Source of the DNA: Arthrobacter sp. AQ5-06
Lineage (GTDB): Bacteria; Actinomycetota; Actinomycetes; Actinomycetales; Micrococcaceae
Length of the DNA: 64,000 bases
Assembly: GCF_003287955.1 (NCBI RefSeq)
Contig: NZ_QMKP01000011.1
Coordinates: 1 to 64,000, forward strand
Direction: 5' to 3'
Part shown: positions 7,334-16,039 of the stretch, piece after piece
Layout of the letters: every line of letters begins with the position of its first letter
How positions within the stretch are numbered: the stretch's first letter is position 1
Position numbers and translations under genes: made by a program
The notes under the pieces: generated by a model
What the model was told of the DNA's origin: nothing
Seen by the model: only the letters and a program-made list of their open reading frames with translations
Databases searched by the model: none

Positions 7334-8923
7334 GTGACTACTCCCACTGCATCCCAGACTTCCCAGAAGCCGGTGCTGGTTGTTGACTACGGTGCCCAGT
7401 ACGCGCAGCTGATTGCCCGCCGCGTCCGGGAAGCGAATGTGTATTCGGAAGTGGTTCCGCATACCATCACCACCGAGCAGCTCCTGGCCAAGGACCCCGC
7501 CGCCATCATCCTTTCCGGTGGCCCCTCCAGCGTTTACGCGGACGGGGCACCCTCCGTCGGGGCCGACCTCTTTGAGGCCGGAATCCCGGTCTTCGGCATT
7601 TGCTACGGCTTCCAGGCCATGGCCAACGCCCTGGGCGGGAAGGTCGACAAGACCGGCCTGCGCGAGTACGGCTCCACCCGGACCACCATCCTCGGCGAGG
7701 GCCGCTCGGTCCTCGAAGGGATGGCGCAGCACCAGAACACCTGGATGAGCCACGGCGACTCCGTGCACGAGGCCCCCGACGGCTTCGAAGTGCTGGCGAC
7801 GACGGCCGGCGCTGAAGTGGCTGCCTTCGCCAACGAAGAGAAAGCCCTCTACGGCGTGCAGTGGCACCCCGAGGTCAAGCACTCGGCCTATGGCCAGCAG
7901 GTGCTGGAAAATTTCCTGTTCAAGGGCGCAAAGCTGGAGCCCAACTGGACCACGGGGAACATCCTCGAGGAGCAGGTGGACCGGATCCGTAAGCAGATCG
8001 GCGACGCCCGGGTTATCTGCGGGCTCTCCGGCGGCGTTGACTCTGCCGTTGCAGCGGCGCTCGTCCAGCGGGCGGTCGGCGACCAGCTGACCTGTGTGTT
8101 CGTTGACCACGGCCTGCTGCGTGAAGGCGAAGCCGAGCAGGTGGAACGCGACTTCGTTGCTGCCACAGGCGTCAAGCTGTATGTAGCCAACGAGCAGGAG
8201 CGCTTCCTGTCGGCCCTGGCCGGCGTCAGCGATCCGGAAACCAAGCGCAAGATCATCGGCCGCGAGTTCATCCGCGCGTTCGAAGAGGCTGAGCTGGCCA
8301 TCATCGCCGAGGCCGCGGCCCACGGCGAGAAGATCAAGTTCCTGGTCCAGGGCACGCTGTACCCGGACGTCGTCGAATCCGGCGGCGGCGAAGGTGCTGC
8401 GAACATCAAGAGCCACCACAATGTCGGTGGCCTTCCCGAGGACCTGCAGTTCGAATTGGTGGAACCGCTCCGGGCACTGTTCAAGGACGAGGTCCGCGCC
8501 GTGGGCGCCCAGCTGGGCCTGCCGCAGGAAATCGTCGGACGCCAGCCGTTCCCCGGCCCCGGACTGGGAATCCGCATCGTCGGCGACATCACCCAGGAGC
8601 GCCTGGACCTGCTCCGCAAGGCGGACGCAATTGCGCGTGCAGAGCTGACCGCAGCCGGGCTGGACAACGAGGTGTGGCAGATGCCTGTGGTCCTCCTGGC
8701 CGACGTACGGAGTGTGGGCGTCATGGGTGACGGCCGCACCTACGGCCACCCGATCGTGCTCCGTCCCGTTTCGTCCGAGGATGCCATGACGGCGGACTGG
8801 TCCCGCCTGCCGTACGATCTCCTGGCCCGGATTTCGAACCGGATCACCAACGAGGTGGAAGGCGTCAACCGCGTGGTGCTGGACGTGACCAGCAAGCCGC
8901 CGGGAACCATCGAGTGGGAATAG
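7334..8923 (+). CDS. guaA: GMP synthase (glutamine-hydrolysing)
   Basis: 529 residues, normal length. It converts XMP to GMP using ATP and glutamine. An N-terminal class I glutamine amidotransferase domain has nucleophile Cys90 in GICYGFQ and the later QWHPEV His/Glu pair. The ATP-pyrophosphatase domain has the PP-loop GLSGGVDSA from residue 230. The C-terminal dimerisation domain contains the [12 protein letters not shown] motif and ends KPPGTIEWE, as in the family. It starts at GTG. A strong terminator hairpin follows. Confidence 0.98.
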
Positions 8924-9052: not shown

Positions 9053-12000
9053 ATGCCGGTATGGTCCAGGGCGTCACGTGCAAACGCAGAAAAGAAGGCA
9101 GTAGTGTCAGTTGGTCAAGGCCACTCGGAGGGTTCTGAGGAGCTCGGAAAATGGCTGTCCGGGCTTAAACCCGTCACCGGGGCAGACACCATGCTGCGTT
9201 TCACCAAGACCCCCGAAGGTTCCATTGACCTGACCCATGCCCACCCGTCCGGTCTGGCCCAGCTCATGGCCGGCCGCCGCACTCGGTTGTCCACACTCAT
9301 CCGTGACCACCAGCAGTACGTCGTCGCGGCCCGGGCATCGCGGAACATCCGCTCGAAAATCTTCGAACTCGGAAATGACCGTGGCATTGATGCCGGTTAC
9401 CTTTCCGCGGGCACGGTCGTGTGGACGTCTGCGGTTGGCGGCAAACCCCAGCGGGTTTCCGCGCCGGTGATGCTCACCGCAATTTCGCTCACGGTCCGCC
9501 CGGGTGAGGACGACTACGAACTGCAGCTCACCGAGCAGGCCAATATCAACCCGGCCCTGGTCCGGCACCTGAAGACCATCCATGGCATTGTTTTTGACGT
9601 TAACGCCGTGACACGCCTCGCGTACAGCACCGCACGCTTCGATCCCCAGCCTGTCCTGGACAAGCTCGCAACTCTCATCCGGCCCATCCACGGCGCCGAG
9701 GCCCAGCACAATCTGCTGGTGTCGACTTTCGCGGACCTCTCCGGCAACCTGGACGATCCCTGGATCAATGAGGGCAACCCGCTGGTCGCCGCCCTGGCCA
9801 AGGCAGCCAGCGGTGAGGTCATTGACGTACCCGCGCCGGACCCCTTCCGCTTCCCGAGTGTGGACGCGCGCCACCCGGACGACGAACTCCTCCTCCTCGA
9901 CGCCGATCCGGACCAGCAGTACGTCATTGATGCCGCCCGCGCAGGAGACTCCCTGGTGGTCAGCAGCCCGCCGGGCACGGGCCAGACCCAGACGGCCATC
10001 AACACCATCGGTGCCCTGGTGGACGCGGGGCGGTCAGTCCTGGTGGTCGGTGACCGCCGGGCCAGCCTGAACGAAGTATCGGCACAACTGGAATCGCTTG
10101 GACTTGAATCCATCCTGTTCCAGCTCTCCGGCACAGCCACACCGCAGCAGCTCAAGGCCCAGCTGGTGCGGGCCATCGTGCGGAATGAAAAATCACTCGA
10201 ACCGCAGCTGGGGAACCTCCACCGGACCCTCACCGAGCACCGGCACGCGCTGATGGACCACGTGGCGTCCCTGCATAACGTGCGCCAGCGCTGGGGTTGC
10301 TCGCCGTATCAGGCCATGCAGTCGCTGGCCGAGCTGACCTCCATCCACCCCGCCCCCGCCACCACGGTGCGGCTCAAGCGCAGTGTGCTGGATAGCATCC
10401 GCGACCGCAACGAGCTCGCCGGCAGGCTTCGCCGCGCCGCCGAACTTGGCAGCTTCAGCCGCGCATCCACCACCAGCCCGTGGCACGGCGCCCGGCTGCT
10501 CACCCGTAAGGAGACCGAGGAAGCCCAGGAGCTTGCCCGGTCAGTGGCCAAGAACCTGCCGGTCCTGCGCGACCGGATGAACAGCGTCGCCGAACATGCC
10601 GAGATTCGGCTTGGGACATCCTTCTCGGAGTGGGGGGAGCAGCTCGAACTCCTCATGGCTGTCCGCGAAAGCCTCGATAAGTTCACACCGGACATCTTCG
10701 ACAGGCCGGTCAACGACCTCATCTCCGCTACGGCGTCCTCCGCCTGGCGCCGGGAGCGGAACGTCGACATGGCCTCCATGCAGCGTTCCCGCCTGCGCCG
10801 CGTCGCGAAAGAGTACGTCCGTCCGGGCGTCCACATCACCGATCTCCACAGCTCACTGGTGCTGGTGCAGGACCAGCGTGCCCTCTGGTCCGGGTACGCG
10901 ACCTCGCAGCGCCACCCGGCCGTCCCCTCGGGCCTAGCCGAAATGAACGTGATGTACCGGTCGCTGGACCGGGAGCTGACCCAGCTGGGGGAGGCACTCC
11001 GGCACACACAGGCCGGCGGCTCCCTGGCAACGGCCCGCTATGTGGAACTCATGGAGCGGCTGGAGCGGCTCGTGGCCGACACCCACACGCTGAAAACGCT
11101 GCCCGAGCGCACGCTGCTCGTGGAAAATATGCGCGAGCACGGACTGGGGGAGCTCCTCGCCGATCTTGCGGAACGGGAGGTTCCGGCAGGGTCCGTCGCA
11201 GCCGAGCTTGAGCTGGCCTGGTGGCAGTCCGCTCTGGAAGCGATGATCAGCGGCGACGATTACCTGGCCATGTCTGACGGGGACGCACTCCGGCAGCTTG
11301 AGGCCGAATACCGGCTGGCGGACAACGCCCATATTGCCAGCGGCGCGGCGCGCCTGCGCTGGGACCTGTCCGAACGATGGCGGGCCGCGCTTGCGGAACA
11401 CCCGCGCCAGGCCCAGCTTCTCAGGAGCCTGCTCAAGGACGGCCGGGTTACCCTCGCCGCGCTGACGGCCCAGGCCGCCGAGCTGGTCCCCATGCTGGTA
11501 CCGGTCTGGTCGGTCAGCCCTTACCTCATGACCGGGCTCCTGCCCGCCGAACAGCGCTTCGATGCCGTGGTCATCCTGGACGCCGAAGCGACGTCCCTGC
11601 AGGCCGTCCTTCCCGCCATCGCCCGCGCCAGTCAGGTCATAGCTTTCGGTGATGCCCAGATTGCCAGCCCCCGGACTTTCACCGTGGGCGTCGAGCGGCT
11701 GGCCGCCGGTGAAGCGGCCCACCAGCGCGTCGAAAGCGCCTACTCGGCACTGTCTGCCGTCCTGCCTGTCTGGCGGTTGAATTTTGTCTACCGCGCGGTT
11801 GACGAGGACCTGGTCCTGCAGCTGAGCAAAAACTCCTACGACGGCGCCCTCCACAGGCTCCCGGAGGGGCAGTCGGCCACAGGGCTGGACAGAGCGCTCC
11901 TGGTTGAGTACCTGCCCGACGGCACGGGGCTGCCCAGCGCCGACCACGAAGGCGTCGAATCCGTGGTGGCCGAGGTTAACCGGGTGGTGCAGCTGGTCTT

Positions 12001-13159
12001 TGAGCACGCCCGGACGCGGCCACGCACGTCGCTGGCAGTGGTCACCGCCAGCCTGCGCCATGCTGCCCGGATCGGTGAGTCCATTCGTCTTCAGCTGCCG
12101 AACCACCCGGGGCTGGCCAGCTTCTTCAGCGCAGGATCCGAGTCGTTCCGGGTGGTTGACCTTGAGCGGGCGCAGGGCCTGGTCCGTGACCACGTGATCT
12201 TCTCGCCCGGTTTCGGCCGCACTCCCCATGGCCGGGCGCTGCATAACTTCGGACCCCTGTCCGCTGAGGGCGGGCGGGAAAAATTCGCTTTGGCCATGAC
12301 ACGTGCCCGGCGTTCGCTCCACGTCCTGACTTGTTTCCAGCCCGAGGACCTCGATCACACGCGGCTGTCCTACGGGGCGGTGGATTTCTACGAGCTTCTG
12401 AACCGTGAGATTGCGGGAAAGACCGATCTCGGCACTCCGGCGTCCCGTGCCGCTGCCAGTGAGCAGGCGCTTGGAGCCGATCCCCTCGTGGCCGATCTTG
12501 GCGACCGGCTGCGTGCCCGTGGTGCCCGCGTCTGGCACCAGTACGATGGCGTGATTGACGTGGTGGCGGCGGCAGACCCGCTCAGCACCATGGGTCAGGA
12601 CGACGCCGAGATTCCGCGGCCGGTGGCCATCGAATCGGATGGCACGGAGCAATACCGCACCATGAGCGTCCGGGAACGGAGCCGACTCCGCCCGCAGCTG
12701 CTCGAACGGATGGGCTGGCGGTACATGCCGCTGTGGACCATCGAGGTCTTCACGGACCCGTCCGCCTGTGCGGACCGGATCGCGGGTTACCTGGGCCTCG
12801 AGAATGTCCTGCCGCCCGGAAGAGGAACAGCCTCGGGCGGATTCTTCGACGAGGACATGGACTCCCTCGCGCTGGGGAGCGTACAAAGTGACAGGAACGA
12901 AGACCAGGCAGGACGCCTGGCCAGTGAGGAGGCGGTGGTTGTGACCCCACAGAATGCCGATCAGGAAGATACGCACGGTAACGACCAGGCGGACAACCCA
13001 GTCACCGGGAACGCCGCTGTGCCCGACCGCCAGCTGCCAGGGACAGCGGGCATCCTGCCCAACAAGGCTGCGGAGGATGACCCGAAGCGCTGGGGCGATG
13101 GCCCAGACAACGACCACGACGCATGGCTGAAGGAAAACAAGCCGCCGCACTGGGGCTGA
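9053..13159 (+). CDS. Large SF1-helicase-like protein with degenerate ATPase site and C-terminal nuclease-like domain
   Basis: 1368-residue protein built like large AAA/SF1 helicase fusions: an N-terminal domain of unknown fold, a P-loop region from about 300, a long helical insert, a second helicase half (about 830-1130) and a C-terminal PD-(D/E)XK/Vsr-like segment (AIESDGTEQYRTMSVRERSRL, then LERMGWRYMPLWTIEVF). The Walker A reads PPGTGQTQT, with Gln311 where the essential Lys should be. Motif II reads VVILDAEATS, close to DEA(S/T) but altered. It sits alone between guaA and a SAF-domain gene, in normal codon usage, so it seems a resident gene. The start (ATG 9053 or GTG 9104) is uncertain. 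Function unknown. Confidence 0.8.
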   Translation: MPVWSRASRANAEKKAVVSVGQGHSEGSEELGKWLSGLKPVTGADTMLRFTKTPEGSIDLTHAHPSGLAQLMAGRRTRLSTLIRDHQQYVVAARASRNIRSKIFELGNDRGIDAGYLSAGTVVWTSAVGGKPQRVSAPVMLTAISLTVRPGEDDYELQLTEQANINPALVRHLKTIHGIVFDVNAVTRLAYSTARFDPQPVLDKLATLIRPIHGAEAQHNLLVSTFADLSGNLDDPWINEGNPLVAALAKAASGEVIDVPAPDPFRFPSVDARHPDDELLLLDADPDQQYVIDAARAGDSLVVSSPPGTGQTQTAINTIGALVDAGRSVLVVGDRRASLNEVSAQLESLGLESILFQLSGTATPQQLKAQLVRAIVRNEKSLEPQLGNLHRTLTEHRHALMDHVASLHNVRQRWGCSPYQAMQSLAELTSIHPAPATTVRLKRSVLDSIRDRNELAGRLRRAAELGSFSRASTTSPWHGARLLTRKETEEAQELARSVAKNLPVLRDRMNSVAEHAEIRLGTSFSEWGEQLELLMAVRESLDKFTPDIFDRPVNDLISATASSAWRRERNVDMASMQRSRLRRVAKEYVRPGVHITDLHSSLVLVQDQRALWSGYATSQRHPAVPSGLAEMNVMYRSLDRELTQLGEALRHTQAGGSLATARYVELMERLERLVADTHTLKTLPERTLLVENMREHGLGELLADLAEREVPAGSVAAELELAWWQSALEAMISGDDYLAMSDGDALRQLEAEYRLADNAHIASGAARLRWDLSERWRAALAEHPRQAQLLRSLLKDGRVTLAALTAQAAELVPMLVPVWSVSPYLMTGLLPAEQRFDAVVILDAEATSLQAVLPAIARASQVIAFGDAQIASPRTFTVGVERLAAGEAAHQRVESAYSALSAVLPVWRLNFVYRAVDEDLVLQLSKNSYDGALHRLPEGQSATGLDRALLVEYLPDGTGLPSADHEGVESVVAEVNRVVQLVFEHARTRPRTSLAVVTASLRHAARIGESIRLQLPNHPGLASFFSAGSESFRVVDLERAQGLVRDHVIFSPGFGRTPHGRALHNFGPLSAEGGREKFALAMTRARRSLHVLTCFQPEDLDHTRLSYGAVDFYELLNREIAGKTDLGTPASRAAASEQALGADPLVADLGDRLRARGARVWHQYDGVIDVVAAADPLSTMGQDDAEIPRPVAIESDGTEQYRTMSVRERSRLRPQLLERMGWRYMPLWTIEVFTDPSACADRIAGYLGLENVLPPGRGTASGGFFDEDMDSLALGSVQSDRNEDQAGRLASEEAVVVTPQNADQEDTHGNDQADNPVTGNAAVPDRQLPGTAGILPNKAAEDDPKRWGDGPDNDHDAWLKENKPPHWG

Positions 13160-13178
13160 CCTTCAGGCCGCCACGGCG

Positions 13179-13949
13179 TCACCCGGCCCCGCCCTCGGGT
13201 CCCACCAGGACAAAGAACAGCTTGCCCTGCGTGGAGGCCCCCGCCAGCCGGGCAGCCTGCTCCGGGGCTGCTGCCACGACGATCAGCCCGTCGGTCTCGC
13301 CGGTGCCCAACCACTGACCCGTCTTGCCGCCCTGTCCTGACGTCCAGAGGACGGGAACGGATGAAGCCAGCACTTCTGAGGGCGATTGCTGGTCGTAGCC
13401 GTTCGCCCCGGTCAGTACCACGTTAACGAGTTGCCCGGGCGATACCAGCTGGATGGAGGAAGGATCGGCCATTCTCAAGGGCACGGCTGCGGAGCCTGGA
13501 GGCGTTCCGATCAGGAGGCCGGGTCCCAGCAGCAGGGAGTCCGTCGCCAGTTGGCCCTTCCGCAAAGGGGCTGCCAGTTGTTTTCCCGCGGCTTCACTGG
13601 TGTCGGACATGGACCCGGCGGTAAGCATCCCAGGCGGGATCTGCATTGCAGTCAGGTCCGTGGCTGACAAGGCCGTACCTGCGGGGAGATCCCGCGCCGC
13701 CGCCAAGACCGAGACCGTATCGGCGGGCGGGGGAGTGAGCTGATGGACCGTGATTCCGGCAGCAAGGCTGAGTAGGAGGGCTATCGCAAGACGCCGGTTC
13801 CGGCCCAGCCAGGACAACAGCCTGTGGCCGCGCGCGCCTCGGGTGCGTGCTGACGGGAGCGGGCGGCGGACCTGGCGTCCCGTCAGGGCGGATCCGCGGC
13901 TGGAACGAAAGAGGGTAACGGGCATGGGAACCACGCTACGTAGCGGCAA
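13179..13949 (-). CDS. SAF-domain membrane protein (CpaB/RcpC-like)
   Basis: 256 residues. A basic cytoplasmic head is followed by one transmembrane helix (RRLAIALLLSLAAGITVHQL, about 51-70) and a SAF domain (VLAAARDLPAGTALSATDLTAMQIP, about 80-140), the layout of CpaB/RcpC proteins of Flp/Tad pili. No tad genes are near, so a pilus role is unproven. ATG 13925 is an alternative start. It is convergent with the large helicase-like gene. Confidence 0.75.
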   Translation of the reverse strand: MPLRSVVPMPVTLFRSSRGSALTGRQVRRPLPSARTRGARGHRLLSWLGRNRRLAIALLLSLAAGITVHQLTPPPADTVSVLAAARDLPAGTALSATDLTAMQIPPGMLTAGSMSDTSEAAGKQLAAPLRKGQLATDSLLLGPGLLIGTPPGSAAVPLRMADPSSIQLVSPGQLVNVVLTGANGYDQQSPSEVLASSVPVLWTSGQGGKTGQWLGTGETDGLIVVAAAPEQAARLAGASTQGKLFFVLVGPEGGAG

Positions 13950-14024
13950 CCGAACCCGACAGCAGCAAAAGTGCCTATGTGGACAACCGTGCTGCCGGCG
14001 TCGTACGTCTTTTTAGACCCGAGG

Positions 14025-14288
14025 TCAGCTGGCGGCAGCGGCCGTGGCAGGTGCCGGCGCCGGCGCGGCTGCGGGGGCGGAGGGGGCAGCCGAAACGGTG
14101 CTTCCCTTGGCATCCCGGGAATCGGTCCGGTAGAAACCGGAGCCCTTGAAGACCACACCCACGCTGTTGAACTTCTTGCGCAAGGCGCCCTGGCACTCCG
14201 GACATGAAGTCAGGGTGCTGTCGGTAAACGACTGGAAAACGTCGAAGGCGTGGCCGCAATCCTTGCAGGCGTAGGCATACGTGGGCAC
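14025..14288 (-). CDS. FmdB family zinc-ribbon protein
   Basis: 87 residues beginning MPTYAYACKDCGHAFD with a second CPEC motif, the two Cys pairs of the FmdB/CxxC_CXXC_SSSS zinc ribbon. The tail after residue 60 is a low-complexity Ala/Pro stretch. The function of the family is unsettled. Zinc binding is inferred from the four cysteines. It lies downstream of the 5-FTHF cyclo-ligase gene on the same strand. Confidence 0.88.
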   Translation of the reverse strand: MPTYAYACKDCGHAFDVFQSFTDSTLTSCPECQGALRKKFNSVGVVFKGSGFYRTDSRDAKGSTVSAAPSAPAAAPAPAPATAAAAS

Positions 14289-14404: not shown

Positions 14405-14437
14405 TCAGGTTTGATCCGCCAGCCGGATCAAACCTGA
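14405..14437 (-). terminator. Hairpin overlapping the stop of the cyclo-ligase gene
   Basis: A 14-bp perfect stem (arms TCAGGTTTGATCCG and its complement) with a 5-base loop. The stem includes the stop codon and the last codons of the minus-strand gene, so the terminator is partly inside the coding sequence. No U tract follows. Confidence 0.55.
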
Positions 14438-15025
14438 GGGAGTCAGGGCAGCCGGGACCCTCCGGTCAAAGTCTTCGGCGGGAATGCTCCCGGCCGGGAG
14501 CAATTCGGACTCGAAGACGATGGCCGCAAACGGGATCTCAAGTCCGTGCCCGGCCAGGGAGCCCAGCAGGACGTCGTAGTAGCCGCCGCCCTGGCCGATG
14601 CGGTTGCCGTCCCTGTCCACGGCCGTGGCGGGGATGAATAGTGCGGCAACGGACGCCATGATGCCGAGGTCCAGGCGCGGTCCGGCCGGTTCCAGCACCG
14701 GCGCATAGCGGCTGCGGACAAACTCGACGCCGGGGGTCCACTGCGTCCAGCTCAGCCGGCGGCCGGGCTCACAGACAGGGAGCAGGACGGTGTGGCCATG
14801 CCGGTGGAGTTCGCTGATCAGGGGCAGCGTGGGCGGTTCAGGTACGACGCCCAGGTAAGCGCAAAATGTCGACGGCGTCCCACCGGTAAGCTGTTCGGCC
14901 CATGCGGCGCCGTGGACGGCCAGGGCGGCACCGGCCGCGTCGCGCTGGGTGGGATCCGTCGCGGCGCGGCGCGCACGATGGCGTGCGCGGATGTCCGCCT
15001 TGGCTACGCTGCTGCCTTCGGACAT
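14405..15025 (-). CDS. 5-formyltetrahydrofolate cyclo-ligase
   Basis: 206 residues. It converts 5-formyl-THF to 5,10-methenyl-THF with ATP. Seen are the N-terminal basic helix (KADIRARHRARRAATD) and the nucleotide-binding signature DRDGNRIGQGGGYYDVLLG. The start at 15025 is chosen because AAGGAG lies 5 bases upstream; the frame is open further to 15094. It is divergent from galU. Confidence 0.92.
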   Translation of the reverse strand: MSEGSSVAKADIRARHRARRAATDPTQRDAAGAALAVHGAAWAEQLTGGTPSTFCAYLGVVPEPPTLPLISELHRHGHTVLLPVCEPGRRLSWTQWTPGVEFVRSRYAPVLEPAGPRLDLGIMASVAALFIPATAVDRDGNRIGQGGGYYDVLLGSLAGHGLEIPFAAIVFESELLPAGSIPAEDFDRRVPAALTPSGLIRLADQT

Positions 15026-15133
15026 GCCGCTCCTTCGTTGCCGTTCAGTGTGGCCGTTGCAGCGTCTGCGGCGTGCTGGCCCAGGAGCCACCAATAATTA
15101 CTGAATGATCAGCCCCTCCGTTAGATTAGTCCA

Positions 15134-16039
15134 GTGACTACCACTCAGCAGACAGTACGCAAGGCCGTTATCCCCGCTGCCGGACTCGGCACCAGATTCC
15201 TGCCGGCCACAAAAGCAATGCCCAAGGAAATGCTCCCGGTGGTGGACAAGCCTGCCATCCAGTACGTGGTTGAAGAGGCTGTCAACGTTGGCCTTAACGA
15301 CATTCTGATGATCACGGGACGCAACAAGCGTGCCCTGGAGGACCACTTCGACAGGGTTCCTTCGTTGGAGGACACCTTGGAAGCCAAGGGCGACCTGGCC
15401 AAACTTGAGTCCATCCAAGCGGCCAGCAACCTAGGTGACATTCACTACGTCCGCCAGGGTGATCCCAACGGCCTGGGTCACGCAGTACTGCGTGCAAAGC
15501 AGCACGTCGGCAACGAACCGTTTGCTGTCCTCCTCGGCGACGACCTGATCGATGCCCGGGACGAACTCCTCAGCACCATGATCGAAGTCCAGGCCAAGAC
15601 CGGCGGATCCGTGGTGGCCCTCATCGAGGTGGAACCGTCCCAGATCAGTGCCTACGGCTGTGCCGATGTGCAGGCGATCGACGGTGAAGATTACGTCAGG
15701 ATCAACAAGCTCGTCGAAAAGCCCGACGTGGACGAGGCCCCCTCGAACCTGGCCGTCATCGGCCGCTACGTCCTCCACCCGGCAGTTTTTGACGTGCTGG
15801 AGCACACCGGCCCGGGCCGCGGCGGGGAGATCCAGTTGACCGACGCCCTGCAGGAACTGGCAGCCGGCGAAGGCGAGGGCTACGGAGTTTACGGCGTGGT
15901 CTTCCGCGGCCGCCGTTACGACACCGGCGACAAGCTCAGCTACCTCAAGGCCTGCGTCCAGCTCGCCATTGACAGCGACGACCTCGGCCCTGGCCTGAGG
16001 GAGTGGCTGCCGGCCTTCACGGCCGGTCTCGCTAAATAG
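15134..16039 (+). CDS. galU: UTP-glucose-1-phosphate uridylyltransferase
   Basis: 301 residues, normal length, GTG start. It makes UDP-glucose for cell-envelope and storage polysaccharides. The N-terminal nucleotidyltransferase signature AAGLGTRFLPATKAMPKEML is complete, as are LLGDDLID and the RYDTGDKLSYLKA C-terminal motif. rimJ follows after 5 bp, so the two form an operon. Confidence 0.97.
   Translation: MTTTQQTVRKAVIPAAGLGTRFLPATKAMPKEMLPVVDKPAIQYVVEEAVNVGLNDILMITGRNKRALEDHFDRVPSLEDTLEAKGDLAKLESIQAASNLGDIHYVRQGDPNGLGHAVLRAKQHVGNEPFAVLLGDDLIDARDELLSTMIEVQAKTGGSVVALIEVEPSQISAYGCADVQAIDGEDYVRINKLVEKPDVDEAPSNLAVIGRYVLHPAVFDVLEHTGPGRGGEIQLTDALQELAAGEGEGYGVYGVVFRGRRYDTGDKLSYLKACVQLAIDSDDLGPGLREWLPAFTAGLAK

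Follow-up and report, generated by a model that had tools for sequence, protein, structure and literature searches.

A putative Upf1/Dna2-type pseudohelicase with a fused small-protein tail in Arthrobacter sp. AQ5-06

We analyzed a 64,000-nucleotide stretch of the Arthrobacter sp. AQ5-06 genome (assembly GCF_003287955.1, contig NZ_QMKP01000011.1, positions 1–64,000 of the forward strand; hereafter the window) and focused on one large open reading frame (ORF) of 1368 amino acids at positions 9053–13159, on the plus strand, as are all features below unless stated otherwise. Judged from its sequence and a structure model, the encoded protein is best described as a pseudohelicase of the Upf1/Dna2 type within superfamily 1B (SF1B), with a degraded Vsr-like domain and kinship to the ProA/Hhe-like helicase-nucleases. 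Its ATPase activity has very probably been lost, and its last ~118 residues consist of a linker and a fused neighbor gene. This fused small protein is a new finding and the unexpected part of the analysis; literature searches turned up no published account of the pseudohelicase or of its PPHW tip.

Degenerate ATPase motifs in an SF1B fold

A first-pass annotation of the DNA had noted that the Walker A lysine is replaced by glutamine (PPGTGQTQT, residues 306–314, positions 9968–9994). Alignment of the family profile to the corresponding loops of SMUBP-2 (PPGTGKT) and Dna2 (MPGTGKT) confirmed that Gln311 occupies the place of the lysine. Motif II had been given as DAEA and is indeed broken, in another register: an ungapped alignment of FDVVVFDEAS with FDAVVILDAE, from the degenerate motif FDAVVILDAEA (residues 836–846, positions 11558–11590), places Leu842 at the Mg-binding aspartate, Asp843 at the catalytic glutamate and Glu845 at the serine, DAEA being the same stretch shifted one residue later. 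With Gln311 for the lysine of motif I and LDAE for the DEAS of motif II, the protein lacks the residues expected of an active SF1 helicase or ATPase, and it combines a helicase fold, degenerate motifs I and II and purifying selection, as expected of a pseudohelicase.

Comparison with Lys-bearing orthologs suggests that the ATPase site was dismantled across several motifs and not altered at a single point. Nine groups of orthologs, defined by their lack of the Walker A lysine, retain 49–69% of the 348 columns conserved among the Lys-bearing orthologs. The motif II glutamate, the motif III glutamine and the motif V glutamate are each gone in eight of these nine groups; the first is retained by 67% of the f17 group, the second by f17 and the third by f15 (families are numbered with the prefix f). 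The motif II aspartate is invariant in three groups; that of the window protein has lost it. Residues found at 100% include Arg1045 and Gly1053 in eight groups each, Asp1046 in seven and Arg914 in six.

One alternative, which we consider unlikely, is a nucleotide-gated sensor whose Gln-containing P-loop would change shape on binding ATP or another nucleotide that it does not hydrolyze. Otherwise the loop hardly varies in Micrococcaceae (PPG[TS]GQ[TS]QT), as if its pocket were in use, yet the Mg-binding aspartate of motif II has become leucine, and the whole motif I loop is unrecognizable in several other families although the protein persists there.

The structure model of residues 31–1230 (predicted local distance difference test score (pLDDT) 88.2, predicted template modeling score (pTM) 0.78) matched Upf1, Dna2 and IGHMBP2 with Z scores of 20.2, 20.0 and 19.9, the Upf1 and Dna2 alignments beginning at model residue 1; the sequence motifs align as well. 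The family profile matched SMUBP-2 at 8.6e-22. By the model and the profile match, the core has the SF1B fold, namely two RecA domains with a 1B barrel in the SF1B arrangement, with a helical insert of ~400 residues and then the Vsr-like domain. The DUF4011 region (residues 93–172, positions 9329–9568; PF13195, 21.1 bits, just under the gathering score of 22.2) supplies strands of the apparent 1B barrel, judged by the model and the Upf1/Dna2 alignments. The long helical insert (about residues 401–800, positions 10253–11452) lies between motif Ia and motif II and, together with the degenerate motifs I and II, sets the protein apart from Upf1, Dna2 and IGHMBP2. In the RecA2 part (residues 881–1110, positions 11693–12382), Arg914, Arg1045-Asp1046 and the TRARR of motif VI are kept.

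Conservation of the gene and of the Gln state

The frame, described earlier as intact over 1368 codons with normal codon use, is unbroken from its ATG start. The GC content at third codon positions (GC3) is 0.80, within the 0.75–0.84 of eight neighboring genes, and GC at codon positions 1, 2 and 3 of the ORF is 0.72, 0.48 and 0.81. Long antisense ORFs, such as 10934–13150, were taken as shadow frames. The median ratio of nonsynonymous to synonymous substitution rates (dN/dS) over residues 1–1250 was 0.099 (171 pairs, 19 genus sequences), indicating purifying selection. By part, it was 0.042 for DUF4011, 0.068 for the nuclease-like domain, 0.094 for the helical insert, 0.104 for the first RecA1 part and 0.39 for the tail (residues 1251–1368).

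Within the genus, glutamine stands at the Walker A lysine place in 205 of 206 genomes and lysine in none; this and the purifying selection put the observation far beyond chance. The loop reads PPG[TS]GQTQT in 201 of them; of the other five, three have GQSQT, one has APGTGQTQT and one, 63% complete, lacks the region. The possibility raised by the first-pass annotation, that relatives carry lysine and the change is private to this strain, can thus be set aside, together with sequencing error; its picture of a dead-looking ATPase site kept for a long time agrees with a degenerate state that is genus-wide and old. Among 80 named loci, 73 carry glutamine (Arthrobacter, Pseudarthrobacter, Paenarthrobacter, Sinomonas, Renibacterium sp., Zhihengliuella and others), and Psychromicrobium has leucine. 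Micrococcaceae-like Gln copies also occur under the names of other phyla, in Sporosarcina beigongshangi REN13 scaffold8 (L222) and in a metagenome-assembled genome labeled Acidobacteria (L194); mislabeled or contaminated assemblies are a likelier source of these copies than transfer.

Across the order, 146 of 149 genomes contain a match to the protein, mostly at one conserved locus; for a few genomes the best match is weak (down to 6.8e-19) and may be a paralog. Nearly all listed loci hold open full-length frames. At 109 distinct loci, the Walker A lysine place is taken by Gly in f19 (9/9), by Ala in f6 (8/9), f14 (4/4) and f7 (5/5), by Arg in f38 (7/7), and by Val, Leu, His, Thr, Ser and others elsewhere. 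Lysine is retained at nine: six of nine loci in f17, two of three in f5 and the single f45 row.

These data make a functionless, decaying gene hard to credit. Both catalytic centers are degraded, and further so in several families, as such a reading would have it; against it stand the open frames, the near-universal matches, the fixation of glutamine in the genus and a dN/dS of about 0.1, which contradicts decay unless constraint acts at the DNA level. A pseudogene was accordingly rejected on the evidence of purifying selection. So was a dead partner of an active paralog in the same genome, since the genome of AQ5-06 contains no second match to the pseudohelicase (E ≤ 0.001); long Lys-bearing relatives are present in several other genomes of the genus.

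Origin of the degenerate state

The ancestor most likely bore both the lysine and DEAS, and the lysine and the motif II residues most likely disappeared together, once or twice, long ago. DEA(S/T) is kept in all 11 rows with lysine and in none of the 103 others, duplicates and a few fragments being counted among these rows. A mixture-model tree rooted on seven Lys-bearing paralogs placed the Lys-bearing orthologs at the base and 47 non-Lys rows on one side of a branch with support of 60, which rose to 99 (starred) when two f17 rows were omitted. Three full-length orthologs from other classes of the phylum also carry lysine and DEAS, two of them with the nuclease YH. It is from the rooted tree and these orthologs that an ancestral lysine, lost once or twice, is deduced. 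An earlier interpretation drawn from the first tree, repeated loss of the lysine family by family, was dropped after the rooted mixture-model tree.

A second loss is conceivable because the non-Lys f17 rows partly keep the motif II glutamate and all keep the motif III glutamine. Two f17 loci (L099, L136) have Val or Met for the lysine with both of these residues still present, and perhaps represent a second, more recent loss.

The eight Lys-bearing loci of f5 and f17 that were compared share an identical downstream block with MscL and FmdB, and are therefore regarded as positional orthologs; two loci from outside the order (L125, L126) lack this block. Because the Lys-bearing form persists at this locus in related families, the transition from motor to non-motor lends itself to direct comparison.

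The nuclease-like domain

Residues 1151–1250 (positions 12503–12802) form a Vsr/MTES_1575 nuclease-like domain, detected by Pfam and alignments (MTES_1575 REase, PF18741; 32 bits, E 1.3e-7, under the gathering score of 38.2). In a motif search, four of nine paralogs contained ECDGxxYHS...ARDRDRLR, a stretch at which the window protein reads ESDGTEQYRTMSVRERSRLR. The histidine that follows the E-x-D-G stretch, which we take to be catalytic in MTES_1575 domains, is missing from the window protein and from 104 of the 105 rows that cover the region. The aromatic-His pair corresponding to the YHS of the paralogs is in place in one row, L125; as this sole keeper lies outside the order, even those members of the order that bear the Walker A lysine have lost the pair. 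The full set of three acidic residues (Asp1169, Glu1194, Asp1196) occurs in 16 of 19 rows from the genus and in 64 of 81 from the named set.

We therefore weighed an ATP-independent nuclease, in which the helicase part would clamp DNA and the Vsr-like domain would cut it. The retained acidic residues and the low dN/dS of the domain speak for it, but the histidine of the paralogs is gone, Asn takes the place of Asp1169 in three of the 19 genus rows and eight of the 81 named-set rows, and several other families have lost the Asp or Glu of the site yet keep the gene; such an enzyme seems improbable to us. The domain is read as degraded, with no convincing enzyme. The nuclease-like C-terminus of the first-pass annotation thus stands as a fold for residues ~1151–1250, and neither as an enzyme nor for the last ~118 residues.

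The C-terminal tail and a separate small protein

The tail begins with a variable linker (residues 1251–1327, positions 12803–13033) and ends with a conserved tip, ...WGD...DAWLKENKPPHWG (residues 1328–1368, positions 13034–13156), the fused counterpart of a small protein that is separate elsewhere. In a predicted fold of residues 881–1368, the linker was disordered (pLDDT about 35) and the tip formed one short helix at a pLDDT of 50–68. Relatives share the C-terminal tip, which in the window protein reads RWGDGPDNDHDAWLKENKPPHWG; one search found it in 25 of 25 genus genomes, and in other families a like peptide ends a separate short ORF directly behind the helicase gene. Neither the tip nor the small proteins matched any Pfam or NCBIfam model.

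The small protein is fused at 23 of the 109 distinct loci, separate at 62, absent within 1000 nt at 20 and at a contig edge at 4. At 53 of the 62 separate loci its start codon lies at most 20 nt from the helicase stop, and at 32 the ATG or GTG overlaps that stop as RTGA (−1); at other in-frame positions the same overlap occurred at a mean of 0.60 loci and at most at 8. PPHW was encoded behind the helicase gene at 80 of 100 loci, and in six control stretches at 3/100, 1/101, 0/109, 2/108, 0/70 and 4/64. In most cases, then, the two genes are coupled neighbors in this order, and in the family of the window they are fused. Since all eight Lys-bearing f5 and f17 rows have the PPHW peptide, fused or directly behind, the link between helicase and small protein is older than the ATPase loss. 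Within the genus, the stop between the two comes and goes: they are separate in L117, L009, L012 and L013 and fused elsewhere.

The small protein is wider in distribution than the helicase and independent of its presence. When 148 genomes of the class were searched with a profile of the tip, 102 gave a match at E ≤ 0.1 and 83 at E ≤ 0.001, mostly at one place each. Of 20 inspected small-protein loci without the helicase beside them, 12 adjoin an MscL match; among these 20 genomes, one (f25) has a helicase ortholog on another contig and two have only paralogue-like matches. The tip also does not lie within 1000 nt of the helicase gene at two of seven f38 loci. Small, acidic and with PPHW or PPHH at its end, the protein is widespread in Actinomycetes, often next to MscL (for example L062, L134, L294–L313).

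Proposed role

With its ATP-burning residues lost, its gene kept and a tiny neighbor tied to it, the protein probably holds nucleic acid or partner proteins and is not a DNA motor, and a structural or sensing role, as the first-pass annotation had suggested, fits these features. The reading as a whole, on which we are evenly divided, is that of an ancient pseudohelicase serving as a static nucleic-acid-binding platform coupled to the small protein. From an ancestor that most likely bore lysine and DEAS, the protein lost its ATPase residues and has since persisted unbroken, encoded by a core gene with one fixed location. ATP would no longer be hydrolyzed and translocation would be gone, while the parts that remain (1B barrel, RecA2 including motif VI and the Arg-Asp of motif V, helical insert, nuclease fold) would act as a static holder of nucleic acid. 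In the family of the window, the flexible linker attaches the small protein to the pseudohelicase C-terminus; the two may act jointly, with the PPHW tip as a docking peptide for a further partner.

Several observations weigh against this platform. The small protein is found in many genomes without a helicase match, it is missing within 1000 nt behind the gene at the 20 loci mentioned above, and in f25 it lies on a different contig from the helicase ortholog, for which reasons it is not an obligate helicase partner. The loss of Arg914, the motif VI arginine and other RecA2 residues in the most diverged groups weakens the case for a shared binding cleft. ATP binding without hydrolysis may persist, as the P-loop is otherwise intact in the genus, and retention of Asp1169 and Glu1194 in most of the genus (16/19) would allow cutting. 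The two tree models conflict on branching, the simpler one yielding a different topology in which the Lys state changes three times or more.

More tentatively, the platform could have arisen by domestication: an anti-phage-type helicase-nuclease may have become, in the ancestor of the order, a core non-enzymatic reader of nucleic acid that forms a unit with the small protein (built around DDTDxGWGE...DxRxLxExPPHW), the two being coupled in amount or, in Micrococcaceae, tethered through a C-terminal docking arm. If true, a defense-type helicase became a household scaffold. An order-wide core gene with a conserved pseudohelicase is in any case a good target, and the pairing with a small protein found across the class, for which neither Pfam nor NCBIfam has a model, offers a shared handle on two conserved genes.

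Relation to known systems

The closest family models are those of the DUF4011-type anti-phage helicase-nucleases ProA (NF058533), Hhe (NF042953) and PADLOC PDC-S37, which resemble the window protein over residues ~610–1244. It scored 341.4 bits against ProA (curated cutoff 1500), 159.8 against Hhe (cutoff 2000) and 358 against PDC-S37; Lys-bearing orthologs come closer to ProA (766–860 bits). Unlike these proteins of about 1900 residues, the window protein measures about 1250 residues, lacks the Walker A lysine, DEAS and the nuclease histidine, and belongs to a near-universal core gene of the order. A motor-free anti-phage defense protein, a variant of ProA or Hhe, would agree with the nearest models being anti-phage; scores far under the ProA and Hhe cutoffs and near-universal presence at one housekeeping locus, where defense genes are usually patchy, leave us with considerable doubt about it. 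The patchy distribution and variable sites of a defense island were likewise not seen, given the 146 of 149 order genomes and the conserved neighbors. According to PMC10250203, a defense hotspot of Pseudomonas aeruginosa is flanked by a core DUF4011 gene.

Helicase-like proteins without motor activity have precedents. Deinococcus radiodurans PriA is reported to have neither ATPase nor unwinding activity but to bind DNA (PMC4504706); there, too, a whole lineage has retained a helicase-type protein whose motifs are degenerate. The window protein comes from another helicase family. RecC is reported to contain an inactivated nuclease-like fold (PMC1185551), and the inactivated helicase domains of AddB/RecC to recognize Chi (PMC4824097); these are likewise SF1 helicase-like and nuclease-like folds that lost their motifs and were reused for holding DNA. 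RecC and AddB, however, are subunits alongside an active motor, whereas no partner motor is known for the window protein.

Genomic context

Downstream, the gene converges on that of an SAF/RcpC-domain protein (13179–13949, minus strand; Pfam SAF, RcpC). The order-wide downstream block comprises genes for an FmdB-type zinc ribbon protein (14025–14288, minus strand; Zn_ribbon_8), 5-formyltetrahydrofolate cyclo-ligase (5-FCL; 14405–15094, minus strand; 5-FTHF_cyc-lig) and a GalU-type nucleotidyltransferase (15134–16039; NTP_transferase). In many families of the order the MscL gene lies directly behind the helicase gene; no MscL gene was found at positions 13160–14025 of the window or at the same place in three other family members (L058–L060). 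In the neighbor comparison, whose ORF clusters may contain shadow frames, the names GuaA, SURF1, GalU, GNAT, SAF, zinc ribbon, 5-FCL, MscL and MoeA are backed by Pfam; further neighbors are, judged by their sequences, presumably an antiporter, MTAP and a penicillin acylase. Upstream lies guaA (7334–8923; GATase, GMP_synt_C), an adjacency repeated in L058–L060.

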